From NCBI GenBank assembly GCA_003161255.1, contig PMOQ01000044.1, forward strand, positions 1 to 64,000: a DNA stretch of 64,000 bases. The letters run 5' to 3'. The notes under the pieces are model-generated. The model was not told the origin of the DNA and searched no databases. It was given only the letters and a program-made list of their open reading frames with translations. Position 1 is the stretch's first letter. Each line of letters begins with the position of its first letter. Shown here piece by piece: positions 4,089 through 48,253 of the stretch. The position numbers were made by a program, and so were the translations under genes. This DNA comes from Acidimicrobiaceae bacterium. Lineage in GTDB: Bacteria; Actinomycetota; Acidimicrobiia; Acidimicrobiales; RAAP-2.

Positions 4089-5066
4089 GTGCGGGTCCTC
4101 GTCACCGGAAGTTCAGGGCATTTGGGAGAGGCTCTAGTTCGCGCTCTCGCCTCTGATGGCTCTGAGGTCGTCGGCATCGACTTGCTCGCGTCTGATTCCA
4201 CCGGCGTTGTGGGGTCCATCACTGACCGTTCCCTGATCCGAAGTTGCATGCGCGATATGGAGGCGGTGATTCACACGGCTACCCTTCACAAGCCTCACAT
4301 CGAGACCCACAGCCACCAGCAGTTCGTCGACACAAATGTCACCGGGACGCTGACCCTGCTCGAGGGAGCAACCGCTGCGGGAGTCAGGCGTTTCGTCTTC
4401 ACCAGCACCACGAGCCTTTATGGCCGGGCCAATGTTCCGGCCTCCGGAAGACCGGCGGCATGGATCGATGAGGACGTCATCCCGATCCCGAAGAACATAT
4501 ACGGGGCCACGAAAAGAGCGGCCGAGGACCTGTGCGAGCTCTTCTACGTGGACAACGGCTTACCGTGCCTGATCCTGCGAACTTCTCGTTTCTTCCCGGA
4601 ACTCGACGACAACCCCGAACTGCGCGGTTCTTATGACGATGCAAATATCAAGCTCAACGAGCTCCTATACCGCCGAGTCGATCTGGAAGATGTCGTCAGC
4701 GCCCACCTTCTGGCTCTACGTTCAGCAGATTCCGTAGGGTTTGGCAGATACGTCGTCAGTGCCACGACACCATTTCGACAAGAGGATCGGGCCGAGCTGC
4801 GGACCGATGCGTCAACCGTGGTTCGGAGACTCTTTCCGGAGTGCGATGCGATCTATGGCCGCTTAGGCTGGAGGCTCTTTCCCAGCATCGAACGCGTCTA
4901 TGTGAACGACCGGGCGCGAGCCGAGCTCGGATGGATGCCCCGTTATGACTTCGGATCGGCGCTCGAGCGGCTCCGGATGAATGAGGATCCAAGGAGCCCA
5001 TTGGCTCTCTCGATCGGGGCAAAGGGCTACCACGCCACCGCGACCTACCCCTACACGCAGCGTTGA
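4089..5066 (+). CDS. NAD-dependent epimerase/dehydratase (extended SDR)
   Basis: VTGSSGHLGEALVRAL Rossmann motif, YGATKRAAE active-site motif; GTG start. Confidence 0.88.
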   Translation: MRVLVTGSSGHLGEALVRALASDGSEVVGIDLLASDSTGVVGSITDRSLIRSCMRDMEAVIHTATLHKPHIETHSHQQFVDTNVTGTLTLLEGATAAGVRRFVFTSTTSLYGRANVPASGRPAAWIDEDVIPIPKNIYGATKRAAEDLCELFYVDNGLPCLILRTSRFFPELDDNPELRGSYDDANIKLNELLYRRVDLEDVVSAHLLALRSADSVGFGRYVVSATTPFRQEDRAELRTDASTVVRRLFPECDAIYGRLGWRLFPSIERVYVNDRARAELGWMPRYDFGSALERLRMNEDPRSPLALSIGAKGYHATATYPYTQR

Positions 5067-44077: not shown

Positions 44078-44815
44078 TCAGGCGCTGTAGGCGCCGTAGC
44101 CGGACGTGTCGAGCTCGTCGGCGAGCTCGGGCCCACCCTCGGCAACGATCCGGCCGCCCACCATCACATGCACGCGGTCGGCTCGCAGCTCTTGGAGCAG
44201 GCGGCGGAAGTGGGTCACGGCCAACACGCCGAGGCCCCACTCCGACGTCGCCAGCTCGATTCGACGCGCGACCGAGCGCAGCGCGTCGATGTCGAGGCCC
44301 GAGTCGATCTCGTCGAGCACCGCGAAACGGGGCCGGAGCACGCCCATCTGGAGGATCTCGTTGCGTTTGCGCTCGCCGCCCGACAGATCGACATTGAGGG
44401 CCCGGTCGAGGAAGCGCCGGTCGAACCCGATCGCGTCGGCCTCCGCATCGAGGGAGGTCGCGACCCGGTCGGCGTCTCCCGCGGTCTCCCGGAGGGCCTC
44501 GGTGAGCACGGCTGCGAGGCGCACACCCGGGACCTCGATGGGGTGCTGGAGGGCCAGGTACAGGCCGGCGCGGGCCCGGCGCCAGCTCGGCAACCCGGCC
44601 AGCTCGGTCCCGTCGATCGTGATACTGCCGGCGGTCACCGTCGGCCCCGGTCGGCCCATCAACGCGTGCGCGAGCGTGCTCTTGCCCGACCCGTTCGGGC
44701 CCATGACGACGTGGACTTCACCCGCCGCGACCTCGAGGTCGACGCCGTGGAGGATCTCGGCCCCGCCGGCCTCGGCGTGGAGGCCCGACACCTTGAGCGT
44801 CCCGGTGGCCGTCAC
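44078..44815 (-). CDS. sufC: Fe-S cluster assembly ATPase SufC (copy 2)
   Basis: MGPNGSGKSTLAHALMG, LSGGERKRNEILQMGVL, LDEIDSGLDIDAL; in the sufB-sufD operon. Confidence 0.95.
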   Translation of the reverse strand: MTATGTLKVSGLHAEAGGAEILHGVDLEVAAGEVHVVMGPNGSGKSTLAHALMGRPGPTVTAGSITIDGTELAGLPSWRRARAGLYLALQHPIEVPGVRLAAVLTEALRETAGDADRVATSLDAEADAIGFDRRFLDRALNVDLSGGERKRNEILQMGVLRPRFAVLDEIDSGLDIDALRSVARRIELATSEWGLGVLAVTHFRRLLQELRADRVHVMVGGRIVAEGGPELADELDTSGYGAYSA

Positions 44816-45129
44816 GGGAGCACCAGCACCACGTCGTCGCCCTCGACCTCGACCACGAACACCGGGACCGGGGTGGTGGCCGGGAACGACCGGGGCTCAC
44901 CCGTCACCAGATCGAACATGCTCCCGTGCTGCGGGCACTCGATCTCGCACTCGTCGGCCCACACCTCGCCCTCGCCCAAGGAGTAGTCCTCGTGGCTGCA
45001 CCGGTCGCCGATCGCATAGAAGTCGTCCTCGATCCGCACGAGGGCGATCCGGGTCCCGGCGACGTCGAACCGGCGGGCCTCGCCCGAGACGAGCTCGTCG
45101 CGCCGGCACAGGACCTGGCGCTCACCCAT
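44812..45129 (-). CDS. Rieske [2Fe-2S] ferredoxin-type protein in the suf operon
   Basis: DRCSHEDYSLGEGEV and CPQHGSMFDLVTGEP Rieske motifs. Confidence 0.93.
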   Translation of the reverse strand: MGERQVLCRRDELVSGEARRFDVAGTRIALVRIEDDFYAIGDRCSHEDYSLGEGEVWADECEIECPQHGSMFDLVTGEPRSFPATTPVPVFVVEVEGDDVVLVLP

Positions 45130-46423
45130 CGGACTCGCCCCCCCGCCCGAGCAGCCCGGCCAGCCGCTGCCCGATGCGACGGCGCAGCGGCCCGGCCGCG
45201 CTCGGCACCGGGGAGCGCTCGACGATGTCGTCGAAGAACCCGAGCACGATCAGCCGCTCGGCCCGGTCGGGCGAGATGCCGCGGGACTCGAGGTAGTAGC
45301 GCTGGTCCTCGTCGACCGGGCCGACGCTCGATGCGTGGCTGCACCGGACGTCGTTCTCCTCGATGTCGAGGTTGGGCACAGAGTCGGCGTGCGCGCTCGC
45401 GTCGAGGACCAGGTTGTGGTTCGTCTGCATGGCGTCCGAACGCGCCGCCCCGTTGCGGACCCGGATGAGGCCCGTGTAGATCGACCGGGATCGCTCGGCG
45501 ACGGCCCCCTTGCACAGGAGGTCGCTGGTCGTCTTGCCGGCCACGTGGTCCTGGAGCGTCCGCACATCGTGGATCTGATCGCCCGAACCGAGGTAGACGG
45601 TGGTGAGCTCGGTCGAGCTGCCCTGGCCGACCGCCGCCGCGTCGACCCGGCAGCGGTCGTAGGCACCGCCCAGCCCGGCGGTGAAGCTCTTCAGTGTGCC
45701 GTCCCGCCCGACCGTCGCCCCGAGCCTGGCCAGGTGCCAGGTGTCGTGGCTGAGGTCCTGGACCATCACATAGGAGAGACGGCCCCGATCGCCCACCACC
45801 ATCTCGCCCACGGGGACGACGAGGCCGGAACCGGCATCGGCCGGGCCGGCGATCACCTCGATGACCCTGGCCTCGGCGTCCTCGCCGACGCGCGTGAGAC
45901 TGCGCAGCAGGGTGGTCGGCGCGGGACCGTCGCCGGTGCCGCCGTCGCACCAGTGCACGATCACGACCGGTTCGTCGAGGGTGACCCTCGCCGGGATGTC
46001 GAGGGTGATCGCGTCTGGGATGAAGCTGTCGTTGAGGGCCACGAAGAAGTCGTCACGGCCGACCACCTCGCCGAACCCGCTCGGCTCGGTCTCGAGGCTC
46101 GAAGCCGGCGCGAACACCACCGTTTCGGGCAGGCCCCGCCGCTCGAGCAGCGCGATCCGGCCGTTGTGGATGATGGCCCGGGGCCCGGCGCCGAACTCGT
46201 CGGCGAGGGCGAGGGCGTCGTCGAGGGCCGCGCCGTGCCCGGGCGCTGCGACCGGACGGTGTGCGTCGAGGTCGAGCCGACCGATCGGCGAGTACCGCCA
46301 GACCTCCGCCTCGTCGGTCGGCTGGGAGATGCCGCCGAGTCGCTCGAATGCCGCTGCTCGTCGAGTCGAGAGCCATGCCGGCCCGCCGAGGGCCGCCGAC
46401 TCCTCAGCCGGAAAGGTTCGCAC
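45122..46423 (-). CDS. sufD: Fe-S cluster assembly protein SufD
   Basis: TSDLLCKGAVAERSRSIYTGLIRV, QTNHNLVLD, CSHASSVGPVDEDQRYYLESRGIS. Confidence 0.93.
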   Translation of the reverse strand: MRTFPAEESAALGGPAWLSTRRAAAFERLGGISQPTDEAEVWRYSPIGRLDLDAHRPVAAPGHGAALDDALALADEFGAGPRAIIHNGRIALLERRGLPETVVFAPASSLETEPSGFGEVVGRDDFFVALNDSFIPDAITLDIPARVTLDEPVVIVHWCDGGTGDGPAPTTLLRSLTRVGEDAEARVIEVIAGPADAGSGLVVPVGEMVVGDRGRLSYVMVQDLSHDTWHLARLGATVGRDGTLKSFTAGLGGAYDRCRVDAAAVGQGSSTELTTVYLGSGDQIHDVRTLQDHVAGKTTSDLLCKGAVAERSRSIYTGLIRVRNGAARSDAMQTNHNLVLDASAHADSVPNLDIEENDVRCSHASSVGPVDEDQRYYLESRGISPDRAERLIVLGFFDDIVERSPVPSAAGPLRRRIGQRLAGLLGRGGESDG

Positions 46424-46468: not shown

Positions 46469-46807
46469 TCAGCGCGGCTTGCGACGCCAACGCCGACGGG
46501 AGGCCTTGGCGTCGTTTCGCCGGGCCTCGGCCAGAGCATCCTCGGCGATGTCGTTCACAATGCTCTCGGCATTGGAGAGGACCGCCGTCATCTCCTCCAC
46601 CGGCACGTTGGGCTCGTCCTCGATCGCCGGCTCGACAAGCGACCCGTGGACCCAGCCGACGTCGGCCAGCCGACGCTCGTAGCGCGGGCAGTTGTCCGGG
46701 CATCGCCACGGTGCCTCGGGGGCGAGGTCGAGGACGCAGAAGCGCGCCACCTCGCCGGACGCATAGGTCCTGCTCTGGAAGTGCTTGCACTCCTCGCGCA
46801 TCGGCAC
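46469..46807 (-). CDS. small four-cysteine protein between sufB and sufD
   Basis: MPMREECKHFQSRTYASGEVARFCVLDLAPEAPWRCPDNCPRYERRL; Cys at 7, 24, 36, 40. Confidence 0.8.
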   Translation of the reverse strand: MPMREECKHFQSRTYASGEVARFCVLDLAPEAPWRCPDNCPRYERRLADVGWVHGSLVEPAIEDEPNVPVEEMTAVLSNAESIVNDIAEDALAEARRNDAKASRRRWRRKPR

Positions 46808-46849: not shown

Positions 46850-48253
46850 TCAGCCGACCGAGCCCTCCATCTGCAGCTCGATCAGCCGACTCCACTCCAC
46901 CGCGTACTCCATGGGGAGGGTCCGGGTTATGGGCTCGATGAACCCGTTCACGATCATGCCCATGGCCTGGGACTCGGAAAGACCCCGGCTCATCAGGTAA
47001 AAGAGCTGGTCATCGCCGATCTTGGCCACCGTGGCCTCGTGCCCGATGCTGGCGTCGCGCTCGCCGACCTCCATGTAGGGCTTGGTCTCGGAGATCGACT
47101 GCTCGTCGAGCAATAGGGCGTCGCAGCGGACGAAGGACTTGGCCCCCGTGGCGCCCTCGTTGACGTGCACGAGGCCCCGGTAGGTGGTCTGGCCCCCACC
47201 CTTCGAGATCGACTTCGACACGATGGTGGAGGTGGTCTCGGGTGCCGCGTGGATCATCTTGGCCCCGGCGTCCTGGTGCTGGCCGGGCCCGGCGTACGCG
47301 ACCGACAGGACCTCGCCGGACGCCTTCGGGCCCATCAGGTACACCGACGGGTACTTCATGGTGAGGCGCGAGCCGATGTTCCCGTCGATCCACTCGACGC
47401 GTGCCTCGGCCTCGGCCCGGGCCCGCTTGGTGACGAGGTTGTAGACGTTGTTCGACCAGTTCTGGATGGTCGTGTACGTGATCCGGCTGCCCTGGAGGGC
47501 CACCAGCTCGACAACCGCCGAGTGGAGCGAGTCGGTCGAGTACACGGGGGCCGAGCAGCCCTCGATGTAATGGACCTCGGATCCCTCGTCGGCGATGATC
47601 AGCGTCCGCTCGAACTGGCCCATGTTCTCGGTGTTGATCCGGAAGTAGGCCTGCAGCGGCATGTCCACCTTCACGCCCGGGGGGACGTAGATGAACGATC
47701 CGCCCGACCACACGGCCGAGTTGAGCGCGGCGAACTTGTTGTCGTTGGGCGGGATGATCGTCCCGAACCACTTGCGGACGATGTCGGGGTACTCGCGTAC
47801 CGCGGTGTCCATGTCGGAGAACAAGACGCCCTGGGCCTCGAGGTCGTCCCGGTTGCGGTGGAACACCACCTCGGACTCGTACTGGGCCGTGACCCCGGCC
47901 AGGTACTTGCGCTCGGCCTCGGGGATCCCGAGCTTCTCGTAGGTGTTCTTGATCTCGGGAGGCAGGTCGTTCCAGTCCTTGACCTGGTCCCCCATCGGCT
48001 TGACGTAGTAGTAGATGTCGTCGAAGTCGAGGCTGGGCATGTTGACCGCGAACCACGCCGCCATCGGCTTGCGCTCGAACCGAGCCAACGCCTTCAGCCG
48101 GAAGTCCCGCATCCAGTCGGGTTCCTTCTTGATGGCCGACATCTCGCGGACGATCTCCTCGTTCAGGCCCTTCTTGGGCTTGAACACATAGTCCGTCTCG
48201 GTGTCGCTCCAGCCGAGCTGGTAACGACCGAGATCGAGATCTGTCAGTGCCAT
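46850..48253 (-). CDS. sufB: Fe-S cluster assembly protein SufB
   Basis: HYIEGCSAPVYSTDSLHSAVVEL, TIQNWSNNVYNLVTKRA, SFVRCDALLLDEQS. Confidence 0.96.
   Translation of the reverse strand: MALTDLDLGRYQLGWSDTETDYVFKPKKGLNEEIVREMSAIKKEPDWMRDFRLKALARFERKPMAAWFAVNMPSLDFDDIYYYVKPMGDQVKDWNDLPPEIKNTYEKLGIPEAERKYLAGVTAQYESEVVFHRNRDDLEAQGVLFSDMDTAVREYPDIVRKWFGTIIPPNDNKFAALNSAVWSGGSFIYVPPGVKVDMPLQAYFRINTENMGQFERTLIIADEGSEVHYIEGCSAPVYSTDSLHSAVVELVALQGSRITYTTIQNWSNNVYNLVTKRARAEAEARVEWIDGNIGSRLTMKYPSVYLMGPKASGEVLSVAYAGPGQHQDAGAKMIHAAPETTSTIVSKSISKGGGQTTYRGLVHVNEGATGAKSFVRCDALLLDEQSISETKPYMEVGERDASIGHEATVAKIGDDQLFYLMSRGLSESQAMGMIVNGFIEPITRTLPMEYAVEWSRLIELQMEGSVG

Follow-up and report, generated by a model that had tools for sequence, protein, structure and literature searches.

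The suf locus in the stretch of DNA analyzed here (64,000 nucleotides of an Acidimicrobiaceae genome; hereafter designated the window) raises the question of whether a small four-cysteine protein of an unnamed family, encoded between sufB and sufD, belongs to the Suf machinery. As the first-pass annotation had read from the sequence, the open reading frame (46469–46807, minus strand; 112 residues from a GTG start; hereafter designated X, as is its product) lies on the same strand as its neighbors, with sufB (46850–48253, minus; TIGR01980, 696 bits) directly upstream and sufD (45122–46423, minus; best models TIGR01981 and PRK10948; SUFBD_core, 216 bits) directly downstream, and with sufC (44078–44815, minus; TIGR01978, 256.6 bits) beyond sufD. 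The sufB stop codon is located 42 bp before X and the sufD start 45 bp beyond it, and no terminator-like site was seen when one was looked for over sufB and X. Between sufD and sufC, a gene for a Rieske-type ferredoxin (44812–45129, minus; PF00355) overlaps the ends of both and is kept in nearly all of the relatives' suf loci.

The coding status of X was assessed with an alignment of its homologs. A start codon (ATG, GTG or TTG) is present at the identical position in all 112 sequences taken, the changes relative to the relatives fall mostly at third codon positions, and dN is much smaller than dS, with values of 0.17 and 0.65, respectively, in the comparison with one relative (L004) and of 0.22 and 1.28 with another (L009). 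The GC contents by codon position (0.71/0.50/0.88) are also gene-like. These results indicate that X is a real gene rather than a chance open reading frame, and that purifying selection acts on it.

The cysteine spacing initially described for X, C-x16-C-x11-C-x3-C (Cys7, Cys24, Cys36 and Cys40), is correct, and the proposed check on its conservation revealed that all four cysteines are invariant in 110 of 110 aligned homologs; in a 104-row alignment, Arg13, Tyr15, Ala29, Pro30, Pro33, Pro37, Arg46, Asp49 and Gly55 are likewise invariant. The cysteines are confined to residues 1–46 (46670–46807, minus), for which hairpin strands are predicted at residues 10–14 and 20–24, while residues 47–112 with the stop codon (46469–46669, minus) comprise an acidic linker, a long predicted helix (residues 70–108) and a basic aromatic tail (RRRWRRKPR). 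The acidic middle and basic C-terminus reported earlier are thus present, with net charges of −11 for residues 47–96 and +8 for residues 97–112. Among the homologs, the tail has a median charge of +6, and Trp or Phe occurs in the last 15 residues of 106 of 110, the tail aromatic residues being absent from many copies at non-suf sites. The AlphaFold2 model of X (mean pLDDT, 80; pTM, 0.39), which is of modest confidence overall and of moderate confidence in the cysteine domain, contains the hairpin in the cysteine unit and the one long helix; the truncated domain alone was modeled poorly (pLDDT, 64).

A short paralog of about 60 residues is encoded elsewhere in the window's own genome, on contig C94 of about 38.2 kb (locus L113, 4197–4391, also given as 4179–4394), and in other genomes. 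When the full-length and short kinds were aligned jointly, only the four cysteines and Arg46 were invariant. Since the paralog carries the same four cysteines, the cysteine unit is a self-contained domain. The paralog in L113 is neighbored by nudix, NIL-domain, LarE-like PP-loop and chlorite-dismutase-family (HemQ-like) genes; several further genomes of the order have it near ammonium transporter and PII-like genes instead.

The homologs have no strongly hydrophobic, membrane-like segment (top 19-residue hydropathy, 1.69), so that a reducing cytosol is the expected environment. A protein with four invariant cysteines and no features of export or of the membrane probably contains a metal site, and the cysteine unit, judging from the invariance of these residues, most likely binds Zn or a [4Fe-4S] cluster. 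It is very unlikely that the cysteines serve as a thiol sensor, switched by redox or disulphide chemistry, instead of a metal site. The case for a metal is drawn from cysteine invariance, and C-x11-C-x3-C is not known as a canonical zinc-knuckle spacing, but all four residues are invariant even in the distant and stand-alone copies, which is more than a two-cysteine switch needs, and the reducing cytosol expected for X also speaks against such a switch.

X was rightly regarded as uncharacterized, and it had no match in family libraries or in PDB sequence and fold searches. Searches of Pfam and NCBIfam with X gave no match at E ≤ 1, and neither X nor any member of the alignment matched a Suf family in these libraries. 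The PHROGs search and the PDB sequence searches, both single and profile, yielded nothing usable for X, and the fold searches of PDB and BFVD with the X model yielded no match; very weak fold matches (E > 0.3) to WW domains, mitoribosomal proteins and chain J of mycobacterial RNA polymerase complexes were dismissed as noise. Like SufT, SufU, SufE and SufA, the known Suf proteins other than SufB, SufC and SufD, X is small and has its gene in a suf locus, but it differs from them in having no Pfam or NCBIfam match and in that its synteny with suf is restricted to one order. As in zinc-ribbon and rubredoxin-type mini-domains, the four cysteines in the X model are arranged around a β hairpin; however, the two CxxC knuckles are absent in 110 of 110 sequences (Cys at 7, 24, 36 and 40), the single close pair being C-x3-C, and no fold match was found. 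A small four-cysteine unit is also shared with the HiPIP-like accessory subunits of glycyl radical enzymes (BSS-β, MASS-β/γ and HPAD-γ), which bind [4Fe-4S] clusters, the motif of MASS-β being CX2CXnCXnC (PMC12358834). The spacing order in X differs from theirs, no PDB profile or fold match was obtained, and Foldseek gave no match at E ≤ 0.001 with a query model whose cysteine domain is only of moderate confidence. The resemblance is only a lead.

The gene order around X was compared among the best 80 of 529 relatives found in candidate stretches of the genome collection. These 80 loci are labeled Acidimicrobiaceae, Acidimicrobiales or unplaced actinobacterial MAGs, except for one MAG labeled Burkholderiales (L017), which is probably mislabeled because its locus is of the Acidimicrobiales type, with a SufB 88% identical to that of the window. 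In the Acidimicrobiales, X is preceded by a co-oriented sufB in 75 of the 80 loci, and for 58 of these 75 the gap measures −1 to 121 bp; this close spacing is common to many genera, though other genes separate X from sufD. In 52 of the 80 loci, X is immediately followed by a gene for an enoyl-CoA hydratase (crotonase) in convergent orientation. In most relatives, the crotonase gene (e.g., L008, 6409–7260) interrupts the suf genes at a point between X and sufD, and it is absent from the window.

The tight, co-oriented site behind sufB, found in many families of the order, together with the four invariant cysteines, would suit an Fe-S accessory factor dedicated to the Suf system of the Acidimicrobiales, namely, a carrier, a scaffold helper or a partner of SufB. 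So would the occurrence of X in one genome (G114; L238, 4942–6144) next to a SufB that is divergent (41% identity). We consider this role somewhat unlikely, because the linkage does not extend to the homologs of other orders, where sufB was found near X in none of the 40 loci fetched. In five genomes (G016, G452, G403, G413 and G425), X occupies a non-suf site and sufB and sufD abut directly, and in G482 sufB and sufD are about 100 bp apart without X between them. Even within the order of the window, X is unlinked from sufB in four genomes (G221, G295, G383 and G552), which also counts against an accessory role. In two of these, G295 and G383 (L257 and L258), the suf order is sufB-sufC-sufD, and SufB is about 47% identical to that of the window. 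The synteny proposed for X and suf therefore holds as a conserved, co-oriented position behind sufB in the Acidimicrobiales, but not in other orders, where X is unlinked.

In those other orders, X commonly follows a run of cysM-like, Sua5 (tsaC/sua5), Asp/Glu racemase (murI), MBL-fold, RNase PH (rph) and Ham1/RdgB (rdgB) genes and a gene for a 185-residue acidic protein. The last is encoded in L188 (7944–8501) and 17 other non-Acidimicrobiales loci, after rdgB-like genes and usually before X; it has no Pfam match, and a search of the window's own genome for it, run without a positive control, found nothing. This second kind of site is consistent with X being a passenger, in which case an ancestor would have received a block of X and the convergent crotonase gene in the space between sufB and sufD, and X would serve a role unrelated to Fe-S; the basic tail, combined with the rph-rdgB site, might suggest one linked to nucleic acids. 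X and the crotonase gene also occur together without sufB in L183 (G482) and L124 (G221), but these two loci could reflect a secondary loss of the sufB link, and it speaks against a passenger that X has stayed close to sufB in many genera even though other genes separate it from sufD. We regard this explanation as unlikely.

In a weakly resolved tree of 106 rows based on few columns, the suf-linked X proteins group together; the suf label in this tree also covers a few unlinked copies of the Acidimicrobiales, and the row L112 bears it in error, its genome (G016) being non-suf. The suf-linked group also includes seven nested second copies that come from other orders, and none of them is suf-linked, contrary to what would be expected of an Fe-S accessory factor. 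The neighbors of the non-suf second copies examined vary from copy to copy (AAA, TetR, GNAT and sulfotransferase). The nesting of these unlinked copies would fit a transfer of X without suf genes.

When 397 genomes of the phylum were searched three times, 32 of them were positive, all within Acidimicrobiia, so that in this sample of the phylum the family is restricted to the class. Among 198 Acidimicrobiia genomes, SufB is present in 185 and the X family in 99; thus, at least 86 of the 198 possess SufB without the family, which does not accompany the SufB of the class wherever it occurs and is, for this reason too, a poor fit to a dedicated Fe-S accessory factor. In being class-restricted and of unknown function, X is like the Acidimicrobiia-specific signature proteins, some of whose listed lengths are near that of X (PMC5962788, Table 2) and which may include the X family.

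Because X is unlinked from suf elsewhere, many genomes have SufB without X, its crotonase neighbor accompanies it also without sufB, and its second copies are unlinked, X probably does not count among the required components of SufBCD. Of the proposal by the first-pass annotation that X is an undescribed Suf component, an uncharacterized protein with four invariant cysteines, encoded behind sufB in one order, is retained, whereas membership in the Suf machinery is unsupported. It is quite unlikely that X represents a new order-specific Fe-S biogenesis factor, a [4Fe-4S] carrier or a SufB regulator, recruited behind sufB from a class-wide four-cysteine family with a different original job.

The reading that we prefer, with a probability of about 0.5, is that X is a small, lineage-restricted metal-site adaptor that is made together with sufB in one order. 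Residues 1–46 would form a self-contained four-thiolate site for Zn or [4Fe-4S], the metal being suggested by the invariant cysteines, and the acidic linker would tether this site to the long helix with its basic, aromatic C-terminus. The C-terminus would then probably dock on a partner, which could be a protein, a nucleic acid or a membrane surface. In the Acidimicrobiales, the short gaps and the lack of a terminator-like site suggest that X is probably co-transcribed with sufB, which would tie the production of X to the demand for Fe-S in this order.

The X family is a strongly conserved, unnamed four-cysteine family that occurs in much of a poorly cultured class and is missing from the libraries searched, and the case of X illustrates how the place of a gene in the operon of a single lineage can give a false hint of its function. 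Should X sense iron or bind an Fe-S cluster, the SUF system would have in it a lineage-specific addition, in organisms that include iron oxidizers; if X binds Zn, it would be one further small metal protein of unknown kind. Whichever the metal, the X family warrants a family entry.
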